Below are positions 11,996 through 35,180 of a DNA stretch of 64,000 bases, piece by piece. The stretch lies in assembly GCA_030748435.1 (NCBI GenBank), contig JASMLZ010000009.1, positions 1 to 64,000 on the forward strand. The letters run 5' to 3'. Positions within the stretch are counted from its first letter, which is position 1; each line of letters begins with the position of its first letter. This DNA comes from Gammaproteobacteria bacterium. Its GTDB lineage: Bacteria; Pseudomonadota; Gammaproteobacteria; Pseudomonadales; Balneatricaceae. The notes beneath the pieces are model-generated. The model was not told the origin of the DNA. It worked only from the letters and a program-made list of their open reading frames with translations, and searched no databases. The translations under genes and the position numbers were made by a program.

Positions 11996-12021
11996 ATACA
12001 TCGCCTTATTTTATGGAATTT

Positions 12022-13356: not shown

Positions 13357-15477
13357 TTACTGGTACTGGTCAGGTTTACTTTCGGAATGGAATACACCCT
13401 CTTGTGACCAGGCAGAAGAGGCCTTGCGCAAGATATCGGCGGTAACAGTAGTCTGCCCCAGTGTCTGGGCGCAGCGTTCTGCTTCCTTGATGACCATGCC
13501 CCGCACAAAATCAGGAATACGGGCTATTTTAGCCTCGCTGGCGGCATCCCATGGCATGCTTGCAGCTTGCTTGGCGGAACCTTCACCCCATTCCTCATAT
13601 TTGGCATCCATAACTGCTATGGTTACCTCTTCTGCCTTCATTTTACGGGCCATAACTTCGATCCGCTGGCGTGTTAAATTACGCATAAAGCCTGAAGGTA
13701 CCTTATCCAGCCGTGCTTGTGCCGCGGCATCCCAGGGCAAGGCAGAGTCCTTGTCAGCCGGTTTGGCCGTATGGCCAAATGGGCACTTGCCCTGTGTCTG
13801 CTTGTTGGTTTGGTCAGAGCTGGTAGATGACATCATGGCTGTGGCACTTTGCAACTGCTGTTCGACCATTGCTAAAGTAATTTCACTGACACTGCCAGCC
13901 GCCGCTTCAATCTGTTGCTGACAGGTGTCGCGCATAAAGCCTTTGGGTACGCGAGCCAGACGGGCCGCTGCATCAGCTCTCCAGTAGTAGGTTGTGCTGG
14001 TTGCTTCTAGGCCTTTGTCTTGCTGCTGTTTAGCTGTTTTTGGGATGGTCATAAAGGCTTGCACATGCGTTATTTCTACCTGTGTGCTGTGTTCCTGACG
14101 GGCTTTTTTCTCGGCCCGACGCTGATAGTGGGCTCGGCTTTCGGCATCTGTTACGCTGTCCAGTAGTGCCAGCGCTGCAGGAGACCAGTCTGGGGCCAGA
14201 TCCGTTGCCCGGGCGGCACTGTCATTGACATTATCCTTGTCGACATGCACTGGACACATGCCAGCGGTAGCAGCATCAACTATGCTGGCGGTAATAACCG
14301 TATGGCCCTGTTGCTGGGCATAACGCAAGATAGCAGTGCGTGCCATGCTTTGCACAAAGCTGGGGATTTTGAGCATGCGTTCATTGGCTTGGTTAGTCCA
14401 ACTGGTAGTGGTTTCGGCCACCACTTCTGTGGCAGGGGTAAAACTGCGCTGGCTTAAGAGTAGGGCACAGTCAACGTCTTGTAACAGGTGTTCGGCATTA
14501 CCACCTATATCCAAATCATCATCGGCGTGAATACCCAGTTTGCCCATAATTAGCAGGCTTGGTTGCTGTTCTTCTACCACCTTGGTAATTACTTCATGGG
14601 GTTTGCCATCGAGTAGTTGTGTGGTAATAGGCACTTTATACTCGTCGGCAATGCTCTGGCACACATCCAGATGACCCTGGTAAATTTTCGCTAAACCAGC
14701 ATCAATAATATCTTCATGCAGTTGTTCTTGCTCTTTAAAACGAAATACCTTGCCGGCTTCGTCAGACAATACCTTGGCTATGCGATTAAAGGCGACATAG
14801 TGGTAATAGGGGTCATAGGCAGAAACAACATGCACCGGAACCTGCCAGGCTTGGGCTAGAGACAAGGCGGTAAGCAGGCCACCATAGGCTCTGGAGGAAC
14901 CATCTACGGCCACAATAATAGGGCCCTGTGATAAAGGCCGCTGCAGGTTTTTGATGACCAAGGTGTCAATATTACTGCGCCGACAGACACGGGAACAAAC
15001 CGTTCCCAGACGGCCACCAGGCACAGCGCCCAGTCCCTGAGCACCTAGGACGAGCAGATCATAATTACCAGAATTGGCGGCCTTGGTCATCTCTGTGTAA
15101 TTTTTACCTTCCAGCGAACTTCTTACATAAGTAACCTGATGTGCCTGACAACTGGCTTCTGCTTGATCCAAATAGGAATCAGTGATGACGCTAAGGCCTT
15201 TGGTAATTAAATCATCGTGAATATCCCGCTGTTTTTCCAGCTCGGTTTCTTCCTGATACTGGGGTGGCAGGCCACCTTCCATTTGGCGAAAGCGGGCATC
15301 ATGCAGCTTTGCCGCATAGACATGGGCGCCGGTTAGGGTAGCTTGCCAGATAGTCGCCACCGCAATGGCTTGTTCGACACCATAGTTGGAATGATCAGAG
15401 GCATCGGCACCAAGAAGTATTTGCTGGTAAGTTGGTAAGCTGCCAACTTGTGAAGAAATTTGGGAAGCTGCGAGCAT
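13357..15477 (-). CDS. Tandem universal-stress-protein with five PCP_red-like repeats
   Basis: The 706-residue protein starts with two UspA-like domains (about residues 15-155 and 165-315); the first has the nucleotide-binding pattern GAQGLGAVPGGRLGT. From about residue 345 it continues with five segments like the PCP_red domain of light-independent protochlorophyllide reductase: ERMLKIPSFVQSMARTAILR, a degenerate one at ALALLDSVTDAESRAH, ARLARVPKGFMRDTCQQQIE, ARLDKVPSGFMRNLTRQRIE and AKIARIPDFVRGMVIKEAE. Between them are two Cys-Pro motifs, MCPVH and KCPFGH, which resemble heme-regulatory motifs. There is no signal peptide, so it is cytoplasmic. The same domain ends the neighbouring radical SAM protein, which suggests they act together, perhaps on a tetrapyrrole. 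Confidence 0.85.
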   Translation of the reverse strand: MLAASQISSQVGSLPTYQQILLGADASDHSNYGVEQAIAVATIWQATLTGAHVYAAKLHDARFRQMEGGLPPQYQEETELEKQRDIHDDLITKGLSVITDSYLDQAEASCQAHQVTYVRSSLEGKNYTEMTKAANSGNYDLLVLGAQGLGAVPGGRLGTVCSRVCRRSNIDTLVIKNLQRPLSQGPIIVAVDGSSRAYGGLLTALSLAQAWQVPVHVVSAYDPYYHYVAFNRIAKVLSDEAGKVFRFKEQEQLHEDIIDAGLAKIYQGHLDVCQSIADEYKVPITTQLLDGKPHEVITKVVEEQQPSLLIMGKLGIHADDDLDIGGNAEHLLQDVDCALLLSQRSFTPATEVVAETTTSWTNQANERMLKIPSFVQSMARTAILRYAQQQGHTVITASIVDAATAGMCPVHVDKDNVNDSAARATDLAPDWSPAALALLDSVTDAESRAHYQRRAEKKARQEHSTQVEITHVQAFMTIPKTAKQQQDKGLEATSTTYYWRADAAARLARVPKGFMRDTCQQQIEAAAGSVSEITLAMVEQQLQSATAMMSSTSSDQTNKQTQGKCPFGHTAKPADKDSALPWDAAAQARLDKVPSGFMRNLTRQRIEVMARKMKAEEVTIAVMDAKYEEWGEGSAKQAASMPWDAASEAKIARIPDFVRGMVIKEAERCAQTLGQTTVTADILRKASSAWSQEGVFHSESKPDQYQ

Positions 15478-15641: not shown

Positions 15642-16376
15642 TTATTTGAAGTTAAAATCAATGGTGGTTTCACCATTGGCGGTAACGGTGACTTTACCTT
15701 TTTGTTGTTTTAGGCTGCCATGCCAGGCAATAATTTTGTATTTGCCAGCGGGTACATTGTCGATCTTGAAGGTGCCATCTTCTGCTACGACGGCATAGTA
15801 GGGGTTTTTAGCAACGAAGACATAGGCATGCATAAAATCATGAGCATCACACTCAACCTTCATGCCAGCGCCGCGCTTGAGCTTGATGGTTTTGTTAATG
15901 GTGCCTACATCTGGTTGGCTAATATTAAAGATGGTTTTTTTGGCCCGGCCGATTATTTCATAGGTATGAATATTATGTAGTACCGGGTCACTGTTAATGG
16001 CAGCGTAGTCACCTTTATTATGCATTACGCTCAAAAAAGGCAAGAACTCACAACCCTTTTGTTCAACCTGCGAACCTAAGGCTGGAAAAGCCTTACCCTG
16101 TTTTACCTTATCAAGATATACCACTACGTCAGCCAGAGCGCCATCGTTAACACGGACAAAATCCACCACACGCTCGCCTGTGCCACATACATCAGTGTCT
16201 TTGCTGATGGTATAGGTCTTGGGTGCAGGATCTTTGCCAGTAAAGGTGACGTTGCCGGTAATGGTGCCACCGTCAGCGACCTGCATTTCTTTATAGGCCG
16301 CAAAAGCCGGCGCTGTCAGGGCAGTTAAACCCAGAGAAAGGCCAAATAACAGGCCATATTTTACAGTGTGTTTCAT
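15642..16376 (-). CDS. Periplasmic cupredoxin-like protein
   Basis: The 244-residue protein begins with a Sec signal peptide ending in APAFAA. The mature part contains HNIHTYEII and later VECDAHDFMHAYVF; the spaced His, Cys-x2-His and Met resemble a type-1 copper ligand set. A C-terminal carboxypeptidase-regulatory-like beta fold (EDGTFKIDNVPAGKYKIIAW) follows. Proteins of this kind are found beside cytochromes in methylamine-utilisation and respiratory clusters and are likely electron carriers or copper-binding factors. It is the second gene of the minus-strand set, 26 bases after the HEAT gene. Copper binding is inferred from residues only. Confidence 0.75.
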   Translation of the reverse strand: MKHTVKYGLLFGLSLGLTALTAPAFAAYKEMQVADGGTITGNVTFTGKDPAPKTYTISKDTDVCGTGERVVDFVRVNDGALADVVVYLDKVKQGKAFPALGSQVEQKGCEFLPFLSVMHNKGDYAAINSDPVLHNIHTYEIIGRAKKTIFNISQPDVGTINKTIKLKRGAGMKVECDAHDFMHAYVFVAKNPYYAVVAEDGTFKIDNVPAGKYKIIAWHGSLKQQKGKVTVTANGETTIDFNFK

Positions 16377-16402: not shown

Positions 16403-18961
16403 TTAAATGTTTGCCTGAGCAAATTTGTTATCGGGGCGGTAAATGGCTTCCAGCATGCTGGCAATATGACTGCGATAGGTACGATTGTCCTCAGTCTTGT
16501 CTGTATCCTGTAAGGCTACGACTAGGCTCTTGCCAGCTGCGTCGGTATCCAGACGTCGCAACATCTGGCCCATAAAGGTGCTGAGTTGTCCGCCGTCCGC
16601 CACCCCCGCGGCAATAAGAGAGTCTTGTGCTCTAGTACAGCGCAGGTCGGCCAGTGTCTCAGCAGCGACTTTGCGGACGCTGTACTCTTTATCCTGTAGC
16701 GCTTGCATAAAGGCTTGCAGAATCTGTTGATCAGGGTCCTCTGGGTTGCCATTTTTCTGCACAGCCTTATGCAGCTTGTTGCCGCGTATACTCAGCAGAG
16801 CCAGCATGGCTTCTTTGCGCACATCAGTGCTGTCGTCCTGCAAACAGGCCATAACGGCCTCCGTAGCGGGCTTGTAGTGCATTAAACCCAGCGTGCGGAT
16901 GATGGCTAAACGCATATCTGCACCAGCGAACTCCAGTTTGGTTAACAGGCTGCCAGCGGCGTTGATTAACAGGCGGCGATGTTTACTACGGGCAGCAATC
17001 TTGCCCAGACTGGTGACGGCTTCCAGGCGGACGTCGGCATTGGCATCGTTGAGGTGTTGAATAAGCAGGTTTATCAGTACCTCGTCATCGGCTTCTGCCA
17101 AGATGCGGATACACAACTGTCGCACATCGTCTTGTACATTAATTTTCTTTTTCGAAACAAAAAGCTTATCGGCCGTGGCTATATTGTTTTCAATCAGTTG
17201 TCGATAGGCAGCATCTTCATCTGGTAATTGTTCCAGTAGTTGGGACAGGCTGGCATCTTCGTTATCGCTGCCAGCTTGGCTTAGGGCCAGGGCCGTTTCG
17301 ACATTTTCGGCCGCAATAGCCTGTAAAGTGGAGGTGAACGCTTTTTCTTGCCGTGGTATATCATCGGCATAGTCACTGGGATAGTCTGCTGGTAGCAAAG
17401 GGGGTGCAGTTTCTGCCTCTGCATCCAGGCTTACCAGACTAATACGTTGCTCATCGTCAGGGGCGGCTACGGCAATATGGGTATCGTTTTCCTCTTGTGC
17501 TCTGATGGCAGCCTGTGCTGGTGCTTCTGGCATGGGTGTCTCGATCACCTCCGCACCAGCCTGATCCATATCGTTGAGCAATACAGAGGTAAGGATTTCC
17601 AGAGGTGCTAAGATGGGGCCAGCGTCTTTAGGATCCACAACATCATCATGCTGTTCGTCAGGTTCTGCGGCGGGTTCGGGCTGCTTAAGTTGAGCCTGGT
17701 TTTGATGCAGGCCCATTATGGTTTGCAGGGCGATTAAACGTACGGTCTGATCGTCATGGTGAATGCATTGGCTTAGATCATGTAGAATTTCTTGGCTGTA
17801 ATATAATTGCTCCGCAACGGCCAGACCGGCTTGGCGGCGCAAGGCGATTGGGGCCTCATCATTACAGACAATTTTGCTCAGGCTGGGCATGGCGAGGGGG
17901 TCTTTTAGTACCTGTGCCAATTCGCAGGCGGCAATGGCCTCTACTGTATAGCGGGTATATAGCAAATTTTGGCAAGTGACCAGTTGTTGCTCCGAGAGTG
18001 TGGCTTGCGGGTCTTGCATGTGTTTGACCTGATCGGTAATAAGATTAACGATCAAGGCCCGGACGGCAGCACTGCCATCAACCAGCAAGTCAATCAGATC
18101 AGTCAAGGCAAACAGGCGGCCCTGCCCTTGTTTAGCCATACTGGCCAACTGGCCGAGTGCGGCTTCACGTACTTCTGGTTGTTGGTCATGGCACATGGCC
18201 ATAAGTGTTTTCAGATATGTCTCTGGCGCCAGTTTAAGCAGCGAGTTTATGGCAGCAATACGGACATCGGCATCTTCACTGGAGAGGGCTTCTTGTAGTG
18301 CAATGGTGGCCTCTGGCTGCTGACTTAAGGCCAGTGCTTTGGCTGCGCGACGTTGTTGGCGGCCATGTTTGCCTTGCAGACGTTGAATGACAATCTCAAC
18401 GCCTTCTTCACCACATTGTGCCAGGCTGTTTAGCACTTCAGTTTCAATATCCTGCCCATCATCATCCTCAAGGATTTTTTTCAGGATAGGTACGGCTTGT
18501 GGGGTCCGGTTATGACCTACGGCCTTGGTAGCTGCTAATTGAATATCCCAGAAGTGATCCCAGTCGCCCATATCGTCGGTGTAAACCCGTTCGTTGCTTT
18601 GTAAAGCATAGTTAATAAGGGTCTCCATGGCTTCTGGACTGGCAATATTTGCCAGTGCCTGCACTGCTGCTAACTTTACTTCTTTATCAGGATCGTTTAG
18701 CAGGCATTCGGTCAGCGTTTGTACAGCCTCATCACTGCCAATTTTGCCAAGCGCTGCAAGACTATCTATGCAGACATCAATATCTTCATCCTGCAGACGT
18801 TCCAGTAAGGCAGTGATGGCTTGTGGTGATTGTAGGTTGCCCAGCACTCTGGCTGCAGTTGCGCGTTCGTTATCCAGGCTGCTGGTGAGCATGCTGGTCA
18901 GAGCGGTAATGACTTCAGCAGGTGCTGCAGACTGAGTTAAGGCTGGCATGTTGGCTTCCAT
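16403..18961 (-). CDS. HEAT-repeat (PBS lyase-like) protein
   Basis: The 852-residue cytoplasmic protein consists of many HEAT/PBS-lyase-like repeats of about 30 residues, for example ATAARVLGNLQSPQAITALL, KLAAVQALANIASPEAMETL and VRLEAVTSLGKIAARSKHRR. They fall in two blocks (about 20-420 and 600-830) separated by an acidic, Pro/Ala-rich region. Such repeats form superhelical binding scaffolds and are also known in bilin lyases. The ATG at 18961 follows AGGAAGCGAACC, so it is preferred over the start 21 bases upstream. It heads the minus-strand set and is divergent from the oxidase operon, so the two probably share control sequences. A cofactor-loading or assembly role is inferred. Confidence 0.82.
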   Translation of the reverse strand: MEANMPALTQSAAPAEVITALTSMLTSSLDNERATAARVLGNLQSPQAITALLERLQDEDIDVCIDSLAALGKIGSDEAVQTLTECLLNDPDKEVKLAAVQALANIASPEAMETLINYALQSNERVYTDDMGDWDHFWDIQLAATKAVGHNRTPQAVPILKKILEDDDGQDIETEVLNSLAQCGEEGVEIVIQRLQGKHGRQQRRAAKALALSQQPEATIALQEALSSEDADVRIAAINSLLKLAPETYLKTLMAMCHDQQPEVREAALGQLASMAKQGQGRLFALTDLIDLLVDGSAAVRALIVNLITDQVKHMQDPQATLSEQQLVTCQNLLYTRYTVEAIAACELAQVLKDPLAMPSLSKIVCNDEAPIALRRQAGLAVAEQLYYSQEILHDLSQCIHHDDQTVRLIALQTIMGLHQNQAQLKQPEPAAEPDEQHDDVVDPKDAGPILAPLEILTSVLLNDMDQAGAEVIETPMPEAPAQAAIRAQEENDTHIAVAAPDDEQRISLVSLDAEAETAPPLLPADYPSDYADDIPRQEKAFTSTLQAIAAENVETALALSQAGSDNEDASLSQLLEQLPDEDAAYRQLIENNIATADKLFVSKKKINVQDDVRQLCIRILAEADDEVLINLLIQHLNDANADVRLEAVTSLGKIAARSKHRRLLINAAGSLLTKLEFAGADMRLAIIRTLGLMHYKPATEAVMACLQDDSTDVRKEAMLALLSIRGNKLHKAVQKNGNPEDPDQQILQAFMQALQDKEYSVRKVAAETLADLRCTRAQDSLIAAGVADGGQLSTFMGQMLRRLDTDAAGKSLVVALQDTDKTEDNRTYRSHIASMLEAIYRPDNKFAQANI

Positions 18962-19040
18962 GGTTCGCTTCCTATAAGGCAAAAGTGCACGATCAAGTGT
19001 TCATCTAGTATCTTTTTGGTAGCAGGAACCATGCCATGAT

Positions 19041-19715: not shown

Positions 19716-19746
19716 GGTTGGACAGATAAAAGGTTTGGATTTGAAT

Positions 19747-21591
19747 ATGGCTATTTTTCAAACTACTCAAGCACATATTCCAGGGGTTCAGCGCTGGTTT
19801 AACAAAATGACACAAACCATGTTCTGGACCTTATTGGTTATGTTGGTATTGGGTATGTTCGGCATTGCGTCTGAATTTACTGGTTTTGGGGCAGCATTGG
19901 CCGCTGATGCTGCAGTGAGCACTGGTGTTACAGCACCAGAGATTGCAGCCAGTGATTACCCCAATATTGGCTTTAGCAGTCGTTCGGTAGTATGGATTGC
20001 TGCACAGATGCACCTGTTCTTTGCCGCTTTTGTCTTGGCAGTACCCCTATTTGTGGTGGTTATTGAGTGGTTGGGTGTTAAAACCAACGACCAACGCTAC
20101 GATGATATGGCCCATGAGTTTATGAAGGTCAGTATGACGGCCTATTCCATCACTGCTTTGTTTGGTGGCCTGCTGGCTTTTGCCCTGTTTGTCCTGTATC
20201 CCCATCTAATGGGTTATATGACGCGGGTATTTGATACCCAGATGCTGTGGTATGCCCTTTTATTCTTTGCCGAAAGCGCGATTTTGTATGTCTATTATTA
20301 TAGTTGGGGTGCCTTGCGTTATGGCAATCGTAAGTGGGTACACCTGAGTTTGGGTGTGGCACTGAATGTGGTGGGCACTTCTATTTTGTTTATTGCCAAT
20401 GCCTGGGCAACCTTTATGATGGCTCCTTCTGGTGTAGATATTGCCACAGGTGCTATTACCGGCAATATTTGGGAAGTCATGCGCGGGCCTTTGTGGAACC
20501 CAGTAAACCTCCACCGATTTATTGCCAATATTGCTTTTGGTGGTGCGGTAGTCGGTGCTTATGCGGGCTATAAATTGCTCAGTGCCAAGACCATGGGTGA
20601 ACGTGCTCATTATGACTGGATGGGTTATACCTCAAACTTTATTGCCGTATTGGCATTTTTACCCTTGCCTTTTGCCGGCTATTGGTTGATGGCCGAAGTG
20701 TACGCCTATTCCCAGCAAATGGGGATTACTGCTATGGGCGGCATTTTGGCTTGGCTATTTATTGTACAGGCAGTGTTGATTGGTACTATATTATTGGCCA
20801 GTAATTATTACCTGTGGTCCGGTATGTCGCGCACCGAAGGTTCCCAGCGCTATCAATGGATGATCAAGTATATTGCCGTAGTGCTGGTGTTGGGCTTTTT
20901 GGTTTGGGTGACACCACATACCATTATTTTGCGAGCGTCAGAGGTCGCCTTGCTAGGCGGCAGTCATCACCACTTGCTTGGCCCTCTGGGCATTATGCCG
21001 GCCAAGAATATCGCGGTTAATCTGATGCTGATCGCCACCTTCCTGTCGTTTCAACTGTACCGTCGTTCGGACAAGCAGGTGACCGTCAGTTGGGCGCCCT
21101 GGGGTAATGCTGTGCTGACGGCCATTTATCTAATTGCCGTAATTAATATTATCTTTGCTGGTATTTACTATGGCTACTTTACCAATACCGTATACAAGGT
21201 TGGCTCCAGTGTGACTCAGGTAGTATCTACTCTGGTAGTGATTGTCGCTGGGGTAGTGATTGATAGCCTGATGTTTAAAAAGGCCAAAATTCTACCGTCC
21301 CAGTGGGGCCGTGTCAGCAACCGTTCGCAATATGCTTTGTTTGCCTTGCCCATTGCCTTTACCTGGCTTATGGCCTTGATGGGCTATGTACGCTCTTCCG
21401 TGCGCACTCACTGGCATGTTTATACCGTAGTAAAAGACAATTCAGCAGATAACTTTATCCCTGCCATAGGATATGCCGGCAATATGATGACCATTGTGAC
21501 GGTGCTATTCCTGCTATGTATTTTGTTTATTTTTTGGATTGCTTCGTTAAGTAACAGTAAACAGATACCCCCGGTAAATAAGGCAGGCTAG
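19747..21591 (+). CDS. Cytochrome bd subunit I-like membrane protein (bd-like oxidase)
   Basis: The 614-residue polytopic protein has some 14 or more hydrophobic helices and aligns by eye with CydA. H89 in AAQMHLFFAAFVLAVP fits the heme b595 ligand His19 of E. coli CydA, FFAESA keeps the Glu107 position, and LFIANAW matches the ANGW segment. At the place of the b558 ligand His186 (KFVHTVAAG) it has RFIANIAFG, so that His is Ala260; a His256 stands four residues earlier. No CydB gene is present. Such bd-like oxidases occur with c-type cytochromes instead of a normal quinol partner. The ATG at 19747 is chosen over a TTG four codons upstream. The electron acceptor is unproven. Confidence 0.78.
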   Translation: MAIFQTTQAHIPGVQRWFNKMTQTMFWTLLVMLVLGMFGIASEFTGFGAALAADAAVSTGVTAPEIAASDYPNIGFSSRSVVWIAAQMHLFFAAFVLAVPLFVVVIEWLGVKTNDQRYDDMAHEFMKVSMTAYSITALFGGLLAFALFVLYPHLMGYMTRVFDTQMLWYALLFFAESAILYVYYYSWGALRYGNRKWVHLSLGVALNVVGTSILFIANAWATFMMAPSGVDIATGAITGNIWEVMRGPLWNPVNLHRFIANIAFGGAVVGAYAGYKLLSAKTMGERAHYDWMGYTSNFIAVLAFLPLPFAGYWLMAEVYAYSQQMGITAMGGILAWLFIVQAVLIGTILLASNYYLWSGMSRTEGSQRYQWMIKYIAVVLVLGFLVWVTPHTIILRASEVALLGGSHHHLLGPLGIMPAKNIAVNLMLIATFLSFQLYRRSDKQVTVSWAPWGNAVLTAIYLIAVINIIFAGIYYGYFTNTVYKVGSSVTQVVSTLVVIVAGVVIDSLMFKKAKILPSQWGRVSNRSQYALFALPIAFTWLMALMGYVRSSVRTHWHVYTVVKDNSADNFIPAIGYAGNMMTIVTVLFLLCILFIFWIASLSNSKQIPPVNKAG

Positions 21592-21620
21592 GCTTAATTG
21601 GGCCTGTGTGGAGTATAGGG

Positions 21621-22457
21621 ATGGAGAATAATATGGGGACATTAATCAGAGTGTTGAGCTTTAGTTTGGGCTTGGCACTGGTATTTACTTTGATCGCCAA
21701 CCTGCTGCCTCAGGTAGAAGGTGAAGCACCAGTGGAAGAAGAGGTTGATTTGAGTAGCCTGGATATGGATACCTTTGTTGCCTTGGGTGAGTCCACCTTT
21801 ACTGGCAAGGGTACCTGTACCCTGTGTCACAATGATATGGGGCGTGCCCCCGATCTGTTAAATATGGATGTGGTTGCCGTTTCTGCCGAGCGTATGCAGG
21901 ATGAGCGTTATGTGGGCACAGCCAGCAATGTTACGGATTATATACGAGAGTCCATGGTTGCACCGGGCGTCTATGTGGTGGCTGGATTTGGCAAGAAGGG
22001 TAGTAATGACAGTGAGTCGCCGATGCCGGATGTTAGTGCGGCACCAATTCAGCTATCTGCCGTAGAGGTGGATGCCATTATTGCTTACTTGCAGGCTAAA
22101 GATGGACATGAAGTGAGCGTCGCCCTGCCCACCCTTGATAAAGCAGATATGTCAGCCGCCAGTGTGGGCTCTGAACCAGTTCCAGCAGCGCCCGTAGCAG
22201 CAGCCACACCGGAAGCGGCCCTGGCCAAGTTTGGTTGTAGTGCCTGCCACTCGGTATTGGCTACAGAATCCCCGGTTGGGCCGGATTTGCGTAATGTTGG
22301 CAGTCGTTTGAGTAGGCAGCAAATACGCATGAGTATTCTTGACCCTATGGCTGAAGTAGCAGAAGGCTTTCCCCCTATCATGCCTAATCTGGCGGACCAG
22401 ATGATGGTGACAGAGTTGGAAATGCTAGTGCAATTTTTGGCTGAGCAAAAACAGTAA
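21621..22457 (+). CDS. Membrane-anchored diheme cytochrome c
   Basis: The 278-residue protein has an N-terminal hydrophobic anchor (about residues 5-27) followed by two cytochrome c domains with heme sites C66-x2-C69-H70 (CTLCHND) and C206-x2-C209-H210 (CSACHSV). Met residues downstream could be sixth ligands. An Ala/Pro-rich linker joins the domains. The protein should face the periplasm and pass electrons to or from the bd-like protein encoded just upstream. Several starts are close together (GTG 21606, ATG 21621, ATG 21633); 21621 follows GGAG at a good distance. Confidence 0.87.
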   Translation: MENNMGTLIRVLSFSLGLALVFTLIANLLPQVEGEAPVEEEVDLSSLDMDTFVALGESTFTGKGTCTLCHNDMGRAPDLLNMDVVAVSAERMQDERYVGTASNVTDYIRESMVAPGVYVVAGFGKKGSNDSESPMPDVSAAPIQLSAVEVDAIIAYLQAKDGHEVSVALPTLDKADMSAASVGSEPVPAAPVAAATPEAALAKFGCSACHSVLATESPVGPDLRNVGSRLSRQQIRMSILDPMAEVAEGFPPIMPNLADQMMVTELEMLVQFLAEQKQ

Positions 22458-22485
22458 AGTAGCCTGATAGAGGAAAGAAAAAGTG

Positions 22486-24933
22486 ATGAAATATCTGCAA
22501 TTAGGCCCTTTCTGGCAGGCGGTGTTGGTAGTGGTGTTGACCTATCTGGTACTGGACAACGCCTTTCCTCCGGTGATGCCCTTATCATTAATGATCCAGT
22601 ATATGGCGATCGTTATCGTAGCGGTATTACTCTATTACTCATTTGATGATGGCCGCTGGCAAGCGTTTAAGCGGCCATTAACCAGTGTACTAAGAGATGA
22701 CAACCAGGCCATTATGCGCTGGACTTTATTGTTGCTGGTCCCCTTGCTGGCGGGCTATACCGTTTATACCATGGTCAAGCCCTCCTATGATGCTCCCGTG
22801 GAGTTGCGTCAGGTACATCCAGCGCCACCTTCGAGCATTAAGGTGTTTGATCAGCAGTACAATTTATCCACTCTGGAAAACCCGATACGGGCAGAAATTC
22901 TGGCTACTATGAGTGAGGATAAAGAGGCTGGCTGGGAGGCTTATGAGGAAGCCGTAGCAGCAGGACGGGACATTTACTTCCAGAACTGTTTTTTCTGTCA
23001 TGGCGACCTGTTAGATGGTCAGGGGCACTATGCACAGGGTTTTAATCCACTGCCGGCTAATTTCCAGGATGTGGGTACCATTGCCCAGTTGCAGGAGTCG
23101 TATCTGTTTTGGCGGATAGCCACCGGTGGTCCTGGCTTGCCAAAGGAAGGCGCGCCGTGGAACTCAGCCATGCCGGTATGGCATGAAATGCTGGATGAAG
23201 AGGACGTCTGGAATACCATTATGTTTCTTTATGACTATGTTGGTCAGGTGCCACGTATTTGGGATCCCGCTGTTTCCAAGCAGGTGACTGCCATAAAGGA
23301 TGAGCGTCTGCGCCAACGTGATGCCATGGGTGGTGAAGAAATCTATCAATTCCGCTGTGCTGTATGCCATGGTGAACAAGGCTATGGTGACGGACCAGCA
23401 GCCGACTATCTATATCCCAGACCAAGAGACTTTAGTCTTGGTATGTACAAGTACAAGACCTCTCCAGGCAGTCTGCCCGCCCGCGATGAGGACTTGTTTG
23501 AGACCATTAAACACGGTTTACCGGGTACGGGCATGCCGGGTTGGAGCAGTCTGTTAACGGATCCGCAGATTCATGATTTGGTTAAGGTAGTAAAAGGGCT
23601 GGATACCACCGCTAGTTTCGCACCCGAAGAAGCTGAAGATGAAGATTTTGATGACGAGGGTCGTTATATCAAACCGGAGCAAATGCTCAGTTATACGGAA
23701 CAGGAGCCTCTAGACGGCCAGATTGCCTATGATCAAAGTTCCATTAAACTGGGCCAACAAGTATTCGAAACTGCCTGTAGTGAGTGCCATGGCGCTGAAG
23801 GGCGGGGTAATATAACCTCGGGTAAGCGGTTGGCCGACGATTGGGGCTATCGTATTTGGCCCCGTGACTTGACCAAGCCCTGGACCTGGCGCGCATCCAA
23901 TGTGTCAGAGCAGGCTAGTGATAGTGCGGAAGCAGCACGCGCAGCGACGATTGCCAAAATCTATCAGCGCTTGTCAATTGGCATTATGGGTACGCCAATG
24001 CCTGCTCACCGGGCTGTGGATGAAGGCAATGAGGACCCTATCAGTCTGCAAGACCGTTGGCATGTAGCCAATTATGTCTATTCACTGCGTGAGCAACATA
24101 CCAGTATGCCAGGTGACCGCAATGTTATTTCAGCTGCCCGTGTTAGCGGCGATTTGCCACTCACTGCTGATGATCCGCGCTGGCAGCAAAGCCAGCCCAC
24201 GGCTCTGGCGATGGTACCCAACATGATTAAGGACGAACGTTTATTTACGCCCCTTAATGACTCTATTACCGTGCGCACGCTGTTTAATGACACAGATATC
24301 GCCTTCCTGTTGCAAGTGAATGATCGTACCCGCAGTTTGCCGGGAGATAAAAGTGCTGAGGCTATTCAGGATGAAGAGCTGGATCTGTTGTCTGATGCAG
24401 TGGCCATACAGGTACCGAAACAGGGTGCTTATCAGTCGGCGCCCGTGGTGGAAAAACCGCTATTCCGTAATGGTGACAAGCAGCATCCTGTGACTATTTG
24501 GTACTGGGATGCCGGGTCGGTGGAGCCGGAGCAGGCAGCAAACAGCATGTTGCTTGAAGGCCATGGGCCTAACCAACCATTGCTACCTCGTTCCGATGAT
24601 CAGAGTCTAAAGGCCAGTGGCCAATGGCAGGATGGTCAGTGGCAGGTGGTTATGCAGCGACCTAGAAAGGGTGGTGAATCCGGTGATCTGGACTTTGTCG
24701 CCGGTGAGTTTATTCCTGTGTCCTTTGCCCATTGGGATGGTAGTAATATGGAAGGTCAGGCAACTCAGGGTTTGGGTCGCCAGAGCTTAACCAGTTGGTA
24801 CTGGTTATTATTGCCTCAGCAAGAGAATCGTCTTGCTGTTTATGGTATTCCCAGTGGAGTAACACTTATGGTATTTGGCTTGGGTTTATTACTGGTGCGT
24901 AGTCAGCGGGCGAGAGCCAAGGCCAAAAATTAA
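22486..24933 (+). CDS. Triheme cytochrome c with ethylbenzene-dehydrogenase-gamma-like C-terminus
   Basis: The 815-residue protein has two to three N-terminal transmembrane helices (within residues 5-90), then three cytochrome c domains with CxxCH sites at 168 (CFFCH), 291 (CAVCH) and 431 (CSECH). Residues about 545-785 resemble the heme-b-binding EB_dh domain of ethylbenzene, DMS or chlorate enzyme gamma subunits, and a final transmembrane helix precedes a basic tail. The ATG at 22486 is chosen because AGAGGAAAG lies upstream. It closes the oxidase operon and is followed by a terminator. It could act as a periplasmic electron conduit between the molybdoenzyme module and the membrane oxidase; this link is inferred. 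Confidence 0.82.
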   Translation: MKYLQLGPFWQAVLVVVLTYLVLDNAFPPVMPLSLMIQYMAIVIVAVLLYYSFDDGRWQAFKRPLTSVLRDDNQAIMRWTLLLLVPLLAGYTVYTMVKPSYDAPVELRQVHPAPPSSIKVFDQQYNLSTLENPIRAEILATMSEDKEAGWEAYEEAVAAGRDIYFQNCFFCHGDLLDGQGHYAQGFNPLPANFQDVGTIAQLQESYLFWRIATGGPGLPKEGAPWNSAMPVWHEMLDEEDVWNTIMFLYDYVGQVPRIWDPAVSKQVTAIKDERLRQRDAMGGEEIYQFRCAVCHGEQGYGDGPAADYLYPRPRDFSLGMYKYKTSPGSLPARDEDLFETIKHGLPGTGMPGWSSLLTDPQIHDLVKVVKGLDTTASFAPEEAEDEDFDDEGRYIKPEQMLSYTEQEPLDGQIAYDQSSIKLGQQVFETACSECHGAEGRGNITSGKRLADDWGYRIWPRDLTKPWTWRASNVSEQASDSAEAARAATIAKIYQRLSIGIMGTPMPAHRAVDEGNEDPISLQDRWHVANYVYSLREQHTSMPGDRNVISAARVSGDLPLTADDPRWQQSQPTALAMVPNMIKDERLFTPLNDSITVRTLFNDTDIAFLLQVNDRTRSLPGDKSAEAIQDEELDLLSDAVAIQVPKQGAYQSAPVVEKPLFRNGDKQHPVTIWYWDAGSVEPEQAANSMLLEGHGPNQPLLPRSDDQSLKASGQWQDGQWQVVMQRPRKGGESGDLDFVAGEFIPVSFAHWDGSNMEGQATQGLGRQSLTSWYWLLLPQQENRLAVYGIPSGVTLMVFGLGLLLVRSQRARAKAKN

Positions 24934-24960: not shown

Positions 24961-24990
24961 AAACCCGCATCGTTAGATGCGGGTTTTTTT
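24961..24990 (+). terminator. Rho-independent terminator of the bd-like oxidase operon
   Basis: A 9-base stem AACCCGCAT / ATGCGGGTT with a 6-base loop is followed by a run of T. It lies 27 bases after the triheme cytochrome gene and separates this operon from the peroxidase/molybdoenzyme operon. Confidence 0.9.
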
Positions 24991-25179: not shown

Positions 25180-25197
25180 TTGGTCTGATTGTTGCTT
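25180..25197 (+). promoter_or_regulatory. Sigma54 (-24/-12) promoter of the Idr-like operon
   Basis: TTGGTCTGATTGTTGCTT has the invariant GG and GC dinucleotides 10 bases apart and a perfect TTGCTT -12 element; the -24 element deviates from TTGGCAC after TTGG. It is 100 bases upstream of the first gene of the operon. Confidence 0.62.
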
Positions 25198-25296: not shown

Positions 25297-26403
25297 ATGG
25301 GCATTCGAAAATTTGGAGGCCTATGTCTGGTGTTAGCTGCTGGTGCTCTGAATACAGCAGCAATTAGTGCTGACAATGGTCAAATTGGCGCGTTGCCTGA
25401 TGTAAAGGTTGACGCGGCCAAGGCAGAATTGGGTAAACGGTTATTTTTTGATACGCGCTTGTCTGGTGATGCAGCTATTTCATGTGCTACATGCCATCAA
25501 CCAGAACATGGTTTCGCGCATCCCGACAAGCTGTCACCCGGCTATCCGGGTAATAAGCATTTCCGTAATTCACCAACGGTCATTAACGCTGTTCACAAAA
25601 AGCGTTGGCTGCATGATTCGCGTTTGGGCACCAGTCTTAATGATGTCACGCGCGGTATGTTGACAGAAGATTATTTGATGAATATGGACATGCGGATTAT
25701 GCAGGAACGCCTTAAGCAGGATCCTGTATATGTAGAAATGTTTAAAACAGCCGGTTATGGCGAGCCGTCAAACGGTGCTGTGCGCAAGGCTATTCCTGAG
25801 TACCTGAAAACACTCACTTCCAAGAATGCACCTTTTGACACTGGCAAGATGTCAGCAAGTGCCCAGCGTGGGCAGCAGTTGTTTACTGGTAAGGCGGGTT
25901 GTGTGACTTGTCATAGTGGGGCCAACTTTACCGACCAGGAAGTACATAACACTGGTGTGCCCGAGAACTTCGATATTTTCCGTGATGTAGAACGTCATCA
26001 AGCGTTTATTGCTTATGCCAGCTTTATGGGTGTGGAAAATTATATGAACCTCAAGCGTGACGCTGGTGCACATATATTGACTCACGAAGCTGACCGTTCT
26101 GATATGGGTACTTTCCTGACGCCGAGTTTGCGTGAACTGGTGTATACCGCACCATATATGCATAACGGCATGATCGATACTTTGGACGACGTGGTTGCCT
26201 TCTATAATCAGGGTGGTGGTGTAGACCAGAATAAATCTGAGCTGTTACAGCCGCTTAACTTGAGCAACAAGGAACAGGCTGATCTGGTTGAGTTCTTGAA
26301 GTCCCTATCAGGTGACCCACTGACGTCTGCTGACTATGTATGGCAGGGCCAATACCCCAACGAATACGAAGTCATTGCAGACTGGCGTGCAGTGAAGAAT
26401 TAG
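25297..26403 (+). CDS. Diheme cytochrome c peroxidase family protein (IdrP1-like)
   Basis: The 368-residue periplasmic protein has a Sec signal peptide (about residues 1-25) and two c-type heme sites, CATCH at C63/C66/H67 and CVTCH at C202/C205/H206, in the arrangement of the MauG/bacterial cytochrome c peroxidase family. GYPGNKHFRNSPTV and TPSLRELVYTAPYMHNG are typical surrounding motifs. A strong site, GTAGGAGG, precedes the ATG. It is the first of four tightly packed genes; iodate reductase clusters contain two such peroxidases, thought to remove peroxide formed in iodate reduction. The family alone would allow other peroxidase or oxidase roles. Confidence 0.85.
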   Translation: MGIRKFGGLCLVLAAGALNTAAISADNGQIGALPDVKVDAAKAELGKRLFFDTRLSGDAAISCATCHQPEHGFAHPDKLSPGYPGNKHFRNSPTVINAVHKKRWLHDSRLGTSLNDVTRGMLTEDYLMNMDMRIMQERLKQDPVYVEMFKTAGYGEPSNGAVRKAIPEYLKTLTSKNAPFDTGKMSASAQRGQQLFTGKAGCVTCHSGANFTDQEVHNTGVPENFDIFRDVERHQAFIAYASFMGVENYMNLKRDAGAHILTHEADRSDMGTFLTPSLRELVYTAPYMHNGMIDTLDDVVAFYNQGGGVDQNKSELLQPLNLSNKEQADLVEFLKSLSGDPLTSADYVWQGQYPNEYEVIADWRAVKN

Positions 26404-26419
26404 GGCGCAGGAGGAAAAG

Positions 26420-27595
26420 ATGAAAACATCAATACAAAAAACCTTGCTGGCAAGTGCCGTCATTGGCGTCATGACTATGGGTCTGGCGGCCCCGGCAAGC
26501 GCGGCTCCAGCACCATTGGCGCCGTTAGGATCCATTGACATTCCAGTGCCAGCGGATAACCCTCAAACTGATGCCAAGGTAGCCTTGGGTGAGAAACTGT
26601 TCTTTGACCCCCGTTTGGGTGGTGACGCTTCCGTGTCCTGCGGTACTTGTCACGAGCCTGAGTCCGGCTGGGCCTGGTCAGACTCATTCTCGCGTGGTTA
26701 CCCTGGTACCACTCACTGGCGTAACAGCCAAACTGTTATCAACAGTGCCTATTATGGCAAGCTATTTTGGGCTGGTGCCGCTGCATCGCTGGAAAAGCAA
26801 GCCAAGTCAGCTGCCAAAGGTGGCGTAGCAGGCAATGGTGAAAATGACATTATGGAAGCACGTTTGGCACTGATTCCTGAATATGTGGATGCTTTCCGCG
26901 AAGTATTCGGTGATGAATGGCCACTGATTGGTAATGCCTGGAAGGCTATTGCTGCTTATGAGCGTACTCTGGTACAGACCGATACACCTCTGGACAAATA
27001 TCTGGAAGGCGATGCCTCAGCCTTAACTGAAGAGCAAGTAAGAGGTAAGGCTCTGTTTGAAGGTAAGGCCGGATGTATTAGCTGTCATAGTGGGGCTTTA
27101 GCTTCTGACGACGCCTTCCATAATATCGGCGTGCCTTATGCTACGCGTTGGGACGAAGATGGTTTGGCGCAAATTACCTTCCGTTTTGAGCAGTATGCCA
27201 AGGGTGTGACTGAGGATTTGTATCGTAACGTGAAGGACGATATGGGTTTGTATTATCGCAGTAAGTTCAAGAGCGATAAGGGCAAATTCCGTACGCCATC
27301 ACTGCGCTACACCATGTATACCGCTCCTTACATGCATAACGGTGCCTTCTTTACCCTGGAAGAAGTGGTTGACTTCTACAACGAGGGTGGATTTGACGAA
27401 GATGGGCGTACTACGGACTGGCCAGAAAACAAGTCGCCTCTGATTAAGCCTCTGGGCTTAACTGATGAGGAAAAAGAAGACTTGGTTGCTTTCCTGGAAG
27501 CCTTCTCTGGCGATGAAATCTTGATTGAAAAACCAGACCTTCCTGACTATGCACCCTTGTTCAGCGAGGCTGAGCTAATGGAGGTGAAAAAATGA
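26420..27595 (+). CDS. Diheme cytochrome c peroxidase family protein (IdrP2-like)
   Basis: The 391-residue periplasmic protein has a signal peptide ending near APASA and two heme sites, CGTCH at C74/C77/H78 and CISCH at C219/C222/H223. It shares the GYPGTTHWRNSQTV and TPSLRYTMYTAPYMHNG motifs with the preceding gene, so the two are divergent paralogues. It begins 16 bases after the first peroxidase and its stop overlaps the start of the Rieske gene (ATGA), showing translational coupling. Paired peroxidases beside a Rieske and an arsenite-oxidase-like subunit are the hallmark of iodate reductase loci. Confidence 0.85.
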   Translation: MKTSIQKTLLASAVIGVMTMGLAAPASAAPAPLAPLGSIDIPVPADNPQTDAKVALGEKLFFDPRLGGDASVSCGTCHEPESGWAWSDSFSRGYPGTTHWRNSQTVINSAYYGKLFWAGAAASLEKQAKSAAKGGVAGNGENDIMEARLALIPEYVDAFREVFGDEWPLIGNAWKAIAAYERTLVQTDTPLDKYLEGDASALTEEQVRGKALFEGKAGCISCHSGALASDDAFHNIGVPYATRWDEDGLAQITFRFEQYAKGVTEDLYRNVKDDMGLYYRSKFKSDKGKFRTPSLRYTMYTAPYMHNGAFFTLEEVVDFYNEGGFDEDGRTTDWPENKSPLIKPLGLTDEEKEDLVAFLEAFSGDEILIEKPDLPDYAPLFSEAELMEVKK

Positions 27596-28191
27596 GTATT
27601 TTTTCCAAACTAAAAGACCAAACCAAGGATAAGGACAGTGCTGAAGAGCATGGCAAATGCATGCTCTCACGACGTAATTTCCTGATGTACGGTAGTGCTT
27701 CTTTGGCTGCTGCCAGCACCGTAACGGTAACCTTGTTCCCAGGTACCGCCCAGGCTGAACAGATGAAGGCCCGAGTGGTTGGCTACCCACGTAAACTGGT
27801 AGCCAAGCTGAGTGAAATGAAAGATCACCAGCCCATTGCTTTCAACTACCCGGATGACGGCCCGAATTCTCAAGCCATGATTGTCAAGATGGCCGGTGTT
27901 CAGGCTGGTGGTGGTGTTGGTGCCGCCCGGGATATTGTGGCCTTTAACTACCTTTGTACCCATCAGGGTGGTCCTTTGGTGGGGTCCTATAAGGCCACCG
28001 GAGAGCACCGTACACTGGGCCAATGTCCATTGCATTTATCCACTTTCGATTTGCGCCGCCATGGCATTATTGTTTCCGGTCAAGCCTATCAAAGTCTACC
28101 TCAGGTTCTGCTTGAAGTGGATGGTGATGAGGTTTACGCCGTAGGCATGATGGGGCTGATTTTCGGCCGCAACAGTAACATGAGCAGCTAA
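27592..28191 (+). CDS. Rieske iron-sulfur subunit with Tat signal (IdrB/AioB-like)
   Basis: The 199-residue protein has a twin-arginine signal near residue 24 (LSRRNFLMYGS) and a hydrophobic stretch, followed by a Rieske domain with C122-x-H124 (CTHQGG) and C145-x2-H148 (CPLHLSTFD), the ligands of a [2Fe-2S] cluster. AioB and IdrB are small Rieske subunits exported by the Tat pathway together with their molybdenum partner. The partner gene follows after 12 bases. It would carry electrons between the molybdenum subunit and periplasmic cytochromes. Confidence 0.9.
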   Translation: MSIFSKLKDQTKDKDSAEEHGKCMLSRRNFLMYGSASLAAASTVTVTLFPGTAQAEQMKARVVGYPRKLVAKLSEMKDHQPIAFNYPDDGPNSQAMIVKMAGVQAGGGVGAARDIVAFNYLCTHQGGPLVGSYKATGEHRTLGQCPLHLSTFDLRRHGIIVSGQAYQSLPQVLLEVDGDEVYAVGMMGLIFGRNSNMSS

Positions 28192-28203
28192 TAGGAGGAA
28201 ATT

Positions 28204-30909
28204 ATGAGTACTGACTACTATTTGCCTGAAGACAGCGCCCCGTTGCCTCCAGTTCATGCGGAGGTCATGACCACCGCCTGTGATTACTGCGTTGTAGCCT
28301 GTGGTTACAAGGTATACCGTTGGCCGGTTGGTTCCGGTGATGGTGGCCTGCAGGCCAGCCAAAATGCTTTTGGCGTTGACTTCCCAAGTTCTGCTTTGCA
28401 GTCCTGGGTAGCACCAGCACAGCACAATATTGTGATGCACAAGCAGATGCCACACAATGTGGTTATCGTGCCTGACAAAGACACCAAGTATGTTAACACT
28501 AACGGTGACTCTTCTATGCGTGGCGGTTTGATCGCCCAGAAGTGTTATAACCCGAAAACCCCAACTCGCGATCGCTTGACCACACCACTGATGCGTATTT
28601 TTGGTACCTTGCAGCCGGTAAGTTGGGAAATGGCTTTGGATGTTGCCGCTCAGGTGGGTCGCCATGTGATTGAAAATCATGGTGCCAACGCCTATGGTGT
28701 AAAGACCTTTTCATATCAGTATATTGAAAATACTTATGCGGTCACCAAGTACGCTTTACGGCATGTGAATACCGCTAACTTTACCTTCCATGACACACCG
28801 TCGGATGTGACATCTACACCGGGCTTCCGGGATGCTGGTTTTGATAACTTTGGGCCCAGCTACGAAGATTGGGGTAGTGCCGATACCCTGATGATTTGTG
28901 GTACTGACCCATATGAAACCAAGACCATTATCTTTACCCAGCATATTATGCCTGCCATTTATCGTGGAATGAAGGTGATTATGTTGAATCCTCGCGAGAC
29001 CGCAGGTGTGGCCTTTGTGAAGAAGATGGGTGGTCTGCATATCGACCTCTTGCCGGGTACTGATAATCTGGTAGTAGGTGCTATCACACGTCATATTCTG
29101 GAGCAGGGATGGGAAGATACAGAATGGCTGAAAAAATGGGTTAACAATAAGTGGGAATCCAATTCCGGCTTTGGTCAGGGTACCCGTAACACGCCATGGC
29201 AGTGGCGCAGTACCTGGGGCAAATTCCAAACCAAGGGTTGGGAAGACTACAAGAAGTGGGTCAGCTCCCAACCGGAATTTGAAGCTGAGTACGCTGCTGG
29301 AGTGGCTGGCATTGATGTTGCCAAGATTTATCAGGCAGCTGAATGGATGGCCAAGCCCAAGGCTGATGGAGGGCGTGTCAAGACTTCTATTGGTATTGAG
29401 AAAGGCTTCTACTGGAGTAACAATACCGCCAATACCAATGCCATTTCTTCTCTGGCTACCATCTGTGGTACTGGTGGTCGTCCTGGACAGGTGGTGGGTC
29501 GCTTTGGTGGTCACCAGCGTGGCGGACAAAGCGGTGGTAGCTACCCCCGTAACAAGTCTCCTGAGAAGGTGGAAGGACGCCGCAGAAGGTCTCTGGATAC
29601 AGACCGTTGGACCTATTCCGGCCATACGCGCTTTGCTCACGTTATTGGTACCACCTGGATTCAATCCATGTGTGGTTCACAGGGCCTGCAGCGCAAGTTT
29701 ACTGAACTGGTCAGCAACAACCCGAATCAGATAATGAGCTATGATCGTCAGGAAATCATTGATTCCTTGAAGGCACGGGCTGATTCTGGTGGTATGGTTG
29801 TGATTAATCAGGATATTTATCTGCGTGATCCAATTGGTGCCCGTTTTGCCGATATTGTTTTCCCTGCCGCAACCTGGGGCGAAGAAGACTTTATGCGTGC
29901 CAATGGCGAACGTCGCTTGCGCCTGTATCAGAAGTTTTATGACGCACCGGGTAATGCCAAGCCAGACTGGTGGATCATTTCCCAACTGGCCAAGCAAATG
30001 GGCTACGACGGCTTTGACTGGAAGAACTCCAATGACGTGGCTGAAGAAGCTTCTCGCTTTAGTCGTGGCAGCCGCAAGGCCTTCCATATGATCAAGATTG
30101 CCGCTCATGCCGAGGGCAAGACCCTGCATGAAAAGTTGCGTGAATTTGGTACTGATGGCATTCAAGGACCGGTATTCTACAACTATGAAACCAAGGAATT
30201 GGTGGGTACCAAGCGTTTGCATGACACCGAGCTCGAGCATGACAAGGCCGCTATTAAGCGTCTGGGTCTGGATAATGGGCCGCAGGGTGCCAATATAGTG
30301 AGTAAGAAGTTTAGTCACTTTAACTCCCAGACAGGCAAAATCAATATCCAGAAGCACCCTTGGGGTTTGTTCTCTGACTTCTGGGAGTGGTTATCGCCCA
30401 AGGATGATGAACTCTGGTTCAACAATGGTCGCATCAATGAAATTTGGCAATCCGGTTTTGATGATGTGGAACGCCGCCCATATACCCGCCAGCGCTGGCC
30501 TGAAAACTGGGTGGAAATCCACCCGGACGATGCCGCCAAACGTGGCATCGAATCTGGTGATCAGGTGATGATGTACTCTGACCGGGTAGTGCAGGTGAAG
30601 GATACCGTGTTGGGTGTGGACAGTGGTCACTTCCAGTTCTCGGAACTGATGAAGCGAGGCCATATTGACCTGCAAAAGGCCGCGGTAACTGCTATAGCTA
30701 TTGTTACTCCAGCCGTGAAGAAAGGCGTATTGTATGCCAATATGATTGACATGCGTCAGCCTTCCAACGCACTGGGTGCTCGCATAGTGGATAATATTTC
30801 TGGTAACTACAACTTTAAGATGGGTGTGTCCAAGATCAAAAAACTTGGGGCATCCAAATATAAGTCCGAGTTCCGGAGCATGTCCTTTGCACCACGTAAT
30901 ATAGTCTAG
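28204..30909 (+). CDS. Molybdopterin oxidoreductase, arsenite oxidase/iodate reductase large subunit family (IdrA-like)
   Basis: The 901-residue protein has no signal peptide of its own and would be exported with the Tat-borne Rieske protein. Near the N-terminus it has C26-x2-C29-x3-C33 and then S104 before MRGG, the C-x2-C-x3-C-x70-S pattern that binds a [3Fe-4S] cluster in AioA. The segment GRFGGHQRGGQSGG keeps an Arg and His at the AioA substrate site, but the stretch PSDVTSTPGFRDAGFDNF seems to lack the His and Glu of AioA (alignment from memory). This, together with two adjacent peroxidases, favours iodate reductase over arsenite oxidase. The ATG has a strong AGGAGG site. A terminator follows. 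Confidence 0.85.
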   Translation: MSTDYYLPEDSAPLPPVHAEVMTTACDYCVVACGYKVYRWPVGSGDGGLQASQNAFGVDFPSSALQSWVAPAQHNIVMHKQMPHNVVIVPDKDTKYVNTNGDSSMRGGLIAQKCYNPKTPTRDRLTTPLMRIFGTLQPVSWEMALDVAAQVGRHVIENHGANAYGVKTFSYQYIENTYAVTKYALRHVNTANFTFHDTPSDVTSTPGFRDAGFDNFGPSYEDWGSADTLMICGTDPYETKTIIFTQHIMPAIYRGMKVIMLNPRETAGVAFVKKMGGLHIDLLPGTDNLVVGAITRHILEQGWEDTEWLKKWVNNKWESNSGFGQGTRNTPWQWRSTWGKFQTKGWEDYKKWVSSQPEFEAEYAAGVAGIDVAKIYQAAEWMAKPKADGGRVKTSIGIEKGFYWSNNTANTNAISSLATICGTGGRPGQVVGRFGGHQRGGQSGGSYPRNKSPEKVEGRRRRSLDTDRWTYSGHTRFAHVIGTTWIQSMCGSQGLQRKFTELVSNNPNQIMSYDRQEIIDSLKARADSGGMVVINQDIYLRDPIGARFADIVFPAATWGEEDFMRANGERRLRLYQKFYDAPGNAKPDWWIISQLAKQMGYDGFDWKNSNDVAEEASRFSRGSRKAFHMIKIAAHAEGKTLHEKLREFGTDGIQGPVFYNYETKELVGTKRLHDTELEHDKAAIKRLGLDNGPQGANIVSKKFSHFNSQTGKINIQKHPWGLFSDFWEWLSPKDDELWFNNGRINEIWQSGFDDVERRPYTRQRWPENWVEIHPDDAAKRGIESGDQVMMYSDRVVQVKDTVLGVDSGHFQFSELMKRGHIDLQKAAVTAIAIVTPAVKKGVLYANMIDMRQPSNALGARIVDNISGNYNFKMGVSKIKKLGASKYKSEFRSMSFAPRNIV

Positions 30910-32962: not shown

Positions 32963-32972
32963 TTGAAATATC

Positions 32973-32984
32973 AGACGATCGTCT
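32973..32984. promoter_or_regulatory. TetR operator, site 1
   Basis: AGACGATCGTCT is a perfect 12-base palindrome located 14 bases upstream of the first AcuR-like regulator start, as expected for autorepression. Related sites are at 33668, 35181 and 35862. Confidence 0.65.
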
Positions 32985-32998
32985 ATACAATCTCGCGA

Positions 32999-35096: not shown

Positions 35097-35180
35097 TAAT
35101 ATAATGCCATGTGTGTGTCAGTCGTTCAGGTCCACATATGGGTGTCTATAACCAATGCAAGAAAAAAGTCTTGAATTATT

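Follow-up and report, generated by a model that had tools for sequence, protein, structure and literature searches.

A predicted iodate reductase operon and a genetically linked cytochrome bd-family module in a gammaproteobacterial genome

Is a set of genes that passes standard models for arsenite oxidase in fact an iodate reductase (idr) operon, and do the genes around it belong with it? We addressed this question in a 64,000-nucleotide stretch of DNA, hereafter the window (contig JASMLZ010000009.1, positions 1 to 64,000 of the forward strand; assembly GCA_030748435.1). The source genome, from a marine-type gammaproteobacterium, is a draft of 2.61 Mb (108 contigs, 98.46% complete). Four genes are at issue:

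25297..26403, + strand: first diheme peroxidase-like gene (368 amino acids; CCP_MauG, 133.2 bits; CXXCH at residues 63 and 202)
26420..27595, + strand: second diheme peroxidase-like gene (391 amino acids; CCP_MauG, 146 bits; CXXCH at residues 74 and 219)
27592..28191, + strand: idrB, Rieske [2Fe-2S] small subunit with a twin-arginine translocation (Tat) motif (199 amino acids; TIGR02694, 114.7 bits, cut-off 95.65)
28204..30909, + strand: idrA, molybdopterin large subunit with a [3Fe-4S] motif (901 amino acids; TIGR02693, 400.6 bits, cut-off 359.05)

The original prediction described a tight operon of two diheme peroxidases, a Tat-exported Rieske protein and a molybdoenzyme of the arsenite oxidase family, and each of these parts was confirmed. 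Of the four open reading frames (ORFs), the first two lie 16 bases apart, the second and third overlap by 4 bases, and 12 bases separate the third from the fourth. Both peroxidases combine a CCP_MauG match with two CXXCH motifs and are 42% identical to one another over 319 columns. IdrB carries SRRNFLM near its N terminus together with the Rieske motif CXHX20CX2H and the Pfam Rieske domain, and IdrA carries the [3Fe-4S] motif CX2CX3CX70S and the domains PF00384, PF18465 and PF01568 (Molybdopterin, Rieske_3 (3Fe-4S) and Molydop_binding). A further close copy of the IdrA gene was not found in the source genome. Judged by these features, the four genes form an idr operon of a known and ordinary kind, with a predicted function in iodate reduction.

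The locus could also encode an arsenite oxidase with accessory peroxidases, passing its electrons to cytochrome c and an oxidase. Several points weigh for this: IdrB and IdrA pass the cut-offs of the NCBIfam models arsenite_ox_S (TIGR02694) and arsenite_ox_L (TIGR02693), which also counts against an iodate reductase, the best solved-structure relatives of the window IdrA are AioA chains, the A gene of a relative on an Azonexus hydrophilus plasmid is publicly annotated as ‘arsenate reductase (azurin)’, and an oxidase module adjoins the operon. Phylogeny places the protein elsewhere. We kept 124 of 153 large-subunit rows (9 short and 20 duplicate rows were dropped), and trees used 46 and 24 rows. 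In the 46-row tree, 12 AioA-type rows (support 100) stood apart from 34 IdrA-type rows, with the window IdrA in a 27-member group (support 99) that includes Endozoicomonas OPT23, Vibrio, Moritella, Marinomonas, Thiomargarita, Thiodiazotropha and Ruegeria. The careful 24-row tree was concordant (window group support 99/98), and there, forcing the window protein into AioA lowered the log likelihood by 61 and was rejected (approximately unbiased test, p-AU 3.07e-5). The large subunit thus lies outside the AioA clade, as the original prediction anticipated.

Active-site residues point the same way. We examined the two alignment columns that we take to be the arsenite-site His and Glu of AioA (A. 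faecalis His195 and Glu203). Among 19 AioA-type rows, the His column held H in 17 and W in 2, and the Glu column E in 18 and P in 1; both residues were replaced in 105/105 IdrA-type rows. The 97 rows of at least 55% identity had P at the His column throughout and N (95) or I (2) at the Glu column, and the 8 intermediate IdrA-type rows had T (5), A (2) or P (1) followed by S (7) or N (1). The window IdrA has P and N at these positions. In the GGHQ region, Arg and His were conserved in 124/124 large subunits. Because the His and Glu columns are replaced, arsenite is disfavoured as the substrate, although iodate is not thereby proven. Membership in AioA is ruled out by the tree and by these replacements, and no peroxidase matches were found in the AioA-type loci searched, in line with the earlier claim that arsenite oxidase loci lack the peroxidase pair seen at IdrA-type loci. 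We consider it very unlikely that the operon encodes an arsenite oxidase. Automatic annotation lumps IdrA-type and AioA-type genes together; the residue table provides a simple marker to tell them apart.

How typical is the arrangement of the operon? Named genomes were scanned for relatives of IdrA, and of 219 relatives the best 80 (69-81% identical) were taken as loci. All 70 loci that have the four genes carry them as peroxidase-peroxidase-B-A on one strand; the remaining 10 are interrupted by contig ends, 4 with a single peroxidase and 6 without upstream genes. The same order has been described in tested strains (PMC8801600) and, as idrP2,P1,B,A, in Pseudomonas sp. SCT and Denitromonas IR-12 (PMC10989891). 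The idea that the gene order here differs from other idr loci therefore had to be abandoned, and novelty of gene order is ruled out by the 70/70 complete loci together with the available text of these two papers. The name idrABP1P2 differs from the order of transcription; by published naming, the gene at 25297, originally called P1, would be idrP2 and that at 26420 idrP1.

Does belonging to this family imply that iodate is the substrate? Endozoicomonas OPT23, Vibrio and Moritella, with which the window IdrA groups, are named as predicted iodate reducers in PMC8692401. Another explanation is that the window’s clade acts on a substrate other than iodate, or that its enzyme is a dehydrogenase feeding, through cytochrome c, the cytochrome bd-family oxidase encoded upstream. 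We found no tested member of this clade, and a linked bd module of cytochrome-c type would suit an electron-donating enzyme. Furthermore, and counting against an iodate reductase, the clade is separate in the 24-row tree from the sister group of the Azonexus plasmid protein, to which the window IdrA is 47.6% identical. Azonexus serves here as a presumed stand-in for the tested clade because its neighbourhood matches that of strains DN11 and TC-10: the plasmid A gene has a kinase, a sigma-54 regulator, peroxidases, a cytochrome c and moaA as neighbours, and a similar idr neighbourhood is described for DN11 and TC-10 (PMC10149662, PMC8801600). On this plasmid, the idr-type genes also lie a few kilobases from Tn7-like transposition genes. 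Protein masses (within family f223, 99.2-99.4 kDa for rows of the Azonexus-like group and 99.7-100.1 kDa for rows of the window’s group; 99.4 kDa for the tested IdrA of Roseovarius azorensis, WP_093034476.1) hint that the Roseovarius enzyme is not of the window’s group, a comparison too weak to use. Against a different substrate stand the gene set, gene order and Fe-S motif, which equal those described for tested idr loci, the count of clade members Vibrio, Moritella and Endozoicomonas among predicted iodate reducers (PMC8692401), and the lack of the bd module in many carriers. We regard this explanation as unlikely.

We thus consider it likely that idrP2-P1-B-A is an operon for a periplasmic iodate reductase, with the substrate and electron path predicted. 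IdrA, with its molybdenum bis(pyranopterin guanine dinucleotide) cofactor (Mo-bisPGD) and [3Fe-4S] cluster, and the Rieske protein IdrB would be exported through the Tat route of IdrB. IdrAB would then receive electrons from a periplasmic carrier and reduce iodate, presumably to hypoiodous acid, while the two peroxidases would remove peroxide or other oxidants.

What might control the operon? Three features in the window bear on this:

25181..25196, + strand: candidate sigma-54 promoter TGG-N9-TGC-T, lying 116 bases ahead of the first peroxidase gene
7492..10167, - strand: sensor histidine kinase, candidate sensor for the sigma-54 promoter
6114..7499, - strand: NtrC-family sigma-54 response regulator (PF00158, 225.8 bits)

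A first sigma-54 pattern, TGG-N8-TTGC, showed no enrichment, with matches in 2/78 regions and a mean of 3.5 after shuffling, which weighs against such a promoter. A preset weighted sigma-54 score of at least 6.5 was reached in 45/78 regions (58%) versus 15% of mononucleotide shuffles, and the pattern TGG-N9-TGC[AT], chosen after viewing the matches of that score, occurred in 30/78 of the 250-base stretches that precede the first peroxidase gene (shuffled mean 2.1, maximum 6, 100 shuffles). It was absent upstream of A (0/105), of the regulator (0/14) and of the kinase (0/2). A consensus promoter scan returned 9 promoter-like sites versus 9.1 by chance. Relatives of the NtrC-type regulator were found in the fetched stretches of 15/80 idr loci, including Vibrio, Photobacterium, Moritella and Marinomonas (50-55% identical in 12), and kinase relatives neighbour idr in organisms including Vibrio, Moritella and Photobacterium; a kinase/regulator pair upstream of idr is also described in DN11 (PMC10149662). 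The kinase and regulator (6114-10167) probably drive the 25181 promoter, a pairing that we infer, and transcription of the operon would start there.

Does the operon stand alone? Directly upstream, on the same strand, lies a second set of genes:

19735..21591, + strand: bdI, cytochrome bd-family membrane subunit (618 amino acids; PF01654, 74.1 bits, residues 82-337)
21606..22457, + strand: membrane-anchored diheme cytochrome c (283 amino acids; PF00034; two CXXCH, one predicted transmembrane segment)
22483..24933, + strand: fusion of a triheme cytochrome c with an ethylbenzene-dehydrogenase-type haem b domain (816 amino acids; PF00034, PF13442, EB_dh 68.3 bits; three CXXCH)
24964..24990, + strand: likely intrinsic terminator, an 8-bp stem CCCGCATC/GATGCGGG followed by a T run, recognized by eye

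The start codon of bdI is TTG, with an in-frame ATG four codons downstream, and the diheme and triheme-EB_dh cytochrome genes are conserved beside bdI in other loci. Among 31 bdI homologues, the columns of E. coli His19 and Glu107 were retained in all and that of His186 in 28, while Lys252 and Glu257, which we take to form the quinol site of E. coli cytochrome bd, were replaced in 31/31. Tyr occupied the Glu99 column in 31/31, and Ser the Glu445 column in 31/31, where the alignment is unsure. The structure model of bdI was modest (predicted local distance difference test score, pLDDT, 65.5; predicted template modelling score, pTM, 0.71), and all 10 fold-search matches at E ≤0.001 were cytochrome bd oxidases (query TM-scores 0.33-0.43). 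In the source genome, bdI was the sole PF01654 match, alongside three COX1-family matches, one of them partial. Residues and gene partners suggest that the module is probably an oxygen reductase taking electrons from cytochrome c, as is likely for its OR-N-type relatives (PMC10839748). At low oxygen, this enzyme and the iodate reductase would share one periplasmic electron supply.

Other loci show variants of the module. In L130 and L131, from two genomes of one genus, a pair of distinct bdI-like genes, each accompanied by cytochrome genes, shares one side of idr; their identities to the window bdI are about 60% and 44%. In L007 (5300-7100), L045 and L078, ORFs that by sequence resemble SCO1-type copper chaperones lie between the oxidase module and idr.

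Is the module tied to idr beyond this window? We counted both in a class sample of 369 genomes and in a sample of 295 genomes from family f223. In the class sample, bdI was found in 15 genomes, IdrA-type genes in 15 and both in 10 (Fisher p 7e-13, relatedness uncorrected; the window’s own genome included and G111, an AioA-like sixteenth A match, left out). The two lay within 16 kb in 7 of the 10 genomes with both and on different contigs in 3. Within f223, 29/295 genomes matched A, 16 being IdrA-type and 13 AioA-type by identity; bdI occurred in 6, all IdrA-type (Fisher p 9e-9, relatedness again uncorrected), and in 0/13 AioA-type genomes. Four of these six carriers had a full-strength bdI match on the contig of A, and a fifth had a second, weaker match there. 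Of the 54 named loci whose upstream sequence reached 9.9 kb or more, 17 had the cytochrome-EB_dh gene upstream of idr, and module and idr are co-located in the distant alphaproteobacterial locus L084. Named loci and sampled genomes overlap and are not independent (L154 of G807, with an identical protein and the same contig coordinates as L085, was dropped). These counts demonstrate a statistical link between bdI and idr; joint function is a guess.

The link has clear exceptions, which weigh against a working partnership. IdrA-type genes occurred without bdI in 5/15 class genomes and 10/16 f223 genomes, and idr therefore does not require the module; conversely, 5/15 bdI genomes of the class sample had no idr match, and no bdI match was found in the fetched stretches of the Vibrio, Endozoicomonas, Moritella and Ruegeria loci among the 80. 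The module may accordingly be a bystander that travels with idr on islands and does no joint work with it. Its position relative to idr varies among genomes (upstream, downstream or on another contig), the likely terminator, which is absent from the output of a consensus terminator scan, separates the two in the window, and TGG-N9-TGC[AT] is not enriched upstream of bdI (3/30; shuffled mean 1.8). On the other side, the association recurs in two separate groups, the distance is at most 16 kb in most class genomes with both, and the alphaproteobacterial locus keeps the two together. We give the bystander explanation a little under an even chance.

In the literature searched, we found no description of a bdI-idr link, though neighbourhood figures or supplements could show one. 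Cytochrome bd was unmentioned in the papers found that name idrA, and among the listed titles none linked arsenite oxidase with CydA or ethylbenzene dehydrogenase. In the available text, the sole co-mention of iodate reductase with an oxygen reductase was the terminal oxygen reductase of the SCT model. The extended island of idr and the bd-family module looks like a new form of a known system, while the idr operon itself is a further member of a known family.

Which other genes might take part? On the opposite strand, before the module, the window encodes the following:

16403..18982, - strand: HEAT-repeat protein (859 amino acids; HEAT_2, 183.5 bits)
15642..16376, - strand: periplasmic-type protein with cupredoxin-like ligands H134, C176, H179 and M182 (244 amino acids)
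13357..15477, - strand: protein with universal-stress domains and four PCP_red domains (706 amino acids; PF00582, PF08369)
12040..13341, - strand: radical-SAM/SPASM protein with a PCP_red domain (NirJ2-like, 312.4 bits, and AhbD-like, 287.7 bits; cut-offs 500)
10556..12001, - strand: protoporphyrinogen-oxidase-like (PPO-like) flavoprotein (TIGR00562, 242.9 bits, cut-off 97.85)

Weak relatives of the HEAT protein (25-37% identical) occur at 30/80 loci, whether or not the oxidase module accompanies idr there. The cupredoxin-like His, Cys, His and Met are invariant in 20/20 homologues, with relatives at 9/80 loci; the gene lies directly before the first peroxidase gene in L130 and L132, and its product is a possible electron carrier. 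The stress/PCP_red protein (13357-15477) is a marker of the oxidase module, being present in 13/15 bdI genomes, 1/5 idr-only genomes (a weak match, G214) and 0/60 others. The radical-SAM protein resembles NirJ2 and the haem b synthase AhbD, below the cut-off of each. Going by family names, we guess that the radical-SAM, PCP_red, PPO-like and ferrochelatase genes together tailor a tetrapyrrole for the bd-family enzyme. Near the start of the window (3181-6080), moaB-like, moeA-like and ferrochelatase genes are consecutive, and genes for molybdenum cofactor and haem synthesis thus lie less than 25 kb from idr.

These genes allow a fuller picture, in which idr at many loci would form the centre of an extended island and a cytochrome c-linked bd-family enzyme, with a special haem from the tetrapyrrole set, would partner the iodate reductase and share its electrons. 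The cupredoxin-like protein and the EB_dh-cytochrome c subunit would distribute electrons between the two enzymes, and the radical SAM-PCP_red, stress-domain PCP_red and PPO-like proteins would make the special haem. The bd-family enzyme would remove oxygen, be it ambient oxygen harmful to the oxygen-sensitive Idr or oxygen released from hypoiodous acid. The cell could then draw on a single electron supply for oxygen and iodate alike at an oxic-anoxic edge. We advance this picture tentatively and hold it to be rather doubtful as a whole.

Iodate reduction shapes the release of iodide from the sea. In the available text of PMC8692401, the idr cluster is without a quinone oxidoreductase, and an earlier model requires a terminal oxygen reductase that consumes oxygen from hypoiodous acid. 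Idr is also described as oxygen-sensitive in an aerobe unable to grow by iodate respiration (PMC11445184). For the gaps left by the accounts in these two papers, a probable cytochrome c-linked oxidase with a genetic tie to idr offers a concrete candidate at the gene level. The tie of bdI and its companions to idr is therefore the part worth following, the operon itself being ordinary.

Beyond the operon, the window holds two TetR regulators (32963-33640 and 35155-35841; 87% mutual identity) that flank a PepSY-domain protein. The first is above the AcuR cut-off, and the pair resembles a recent duplication. The stretch 35913-49098 encodes aldehyde dehydrogenase (methylmalonate-semialdehyde dehydrogenase, MMSDH), choline-dehydrogenase-like, CoA-transferase and enoyl-CoA hydratase genes, followed by ORFs resembling two sets of branched-chain-type ABC transporter genes.

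How, finally, does the island compare with known systems? With AioAB of NT-26 and Thermus HB8, the window shares a molybdenum large subunit paired with a Rieske subunit and the R and H of the GGHQ region; however, the AioA-type loci searched are without peroxidases, and AioA falls in another clade whose His and Glu columns are replaced in the IdrA type. The bd module resembles the OR-C/OR-N-type (cytochrome c-linked) members of the bd superfamily in its bd fold, His19 and Glu107, lack of a quinol site and c-type cytochrome partners; it differs in being linked to idr and haem-type genes. The closest likeness is to IdrABP1P2 of Pseudomonas sp. SCT, Denitromonas IR-12, Azoarcus DN11 and Aromatoleum TC-10, as far as the available accounts describe them: the four genes, the P-P-B-A order, the Tat motif on B, the [3Fe-4S] motif and nearby two-component genes are all shared. 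The CX2CX3CX70S motif of Azoarcus DN11 IdrA (AYH44092.1) is that of the window IdrA, whereas DN11 IdrB has CXHX18CX2H in place of the X20 spacing (PMC10149662). The c551 and moaA neighbours of the IdrABP1P2 group were not seen adjoining the window operon, where the bd-family module stands instead.

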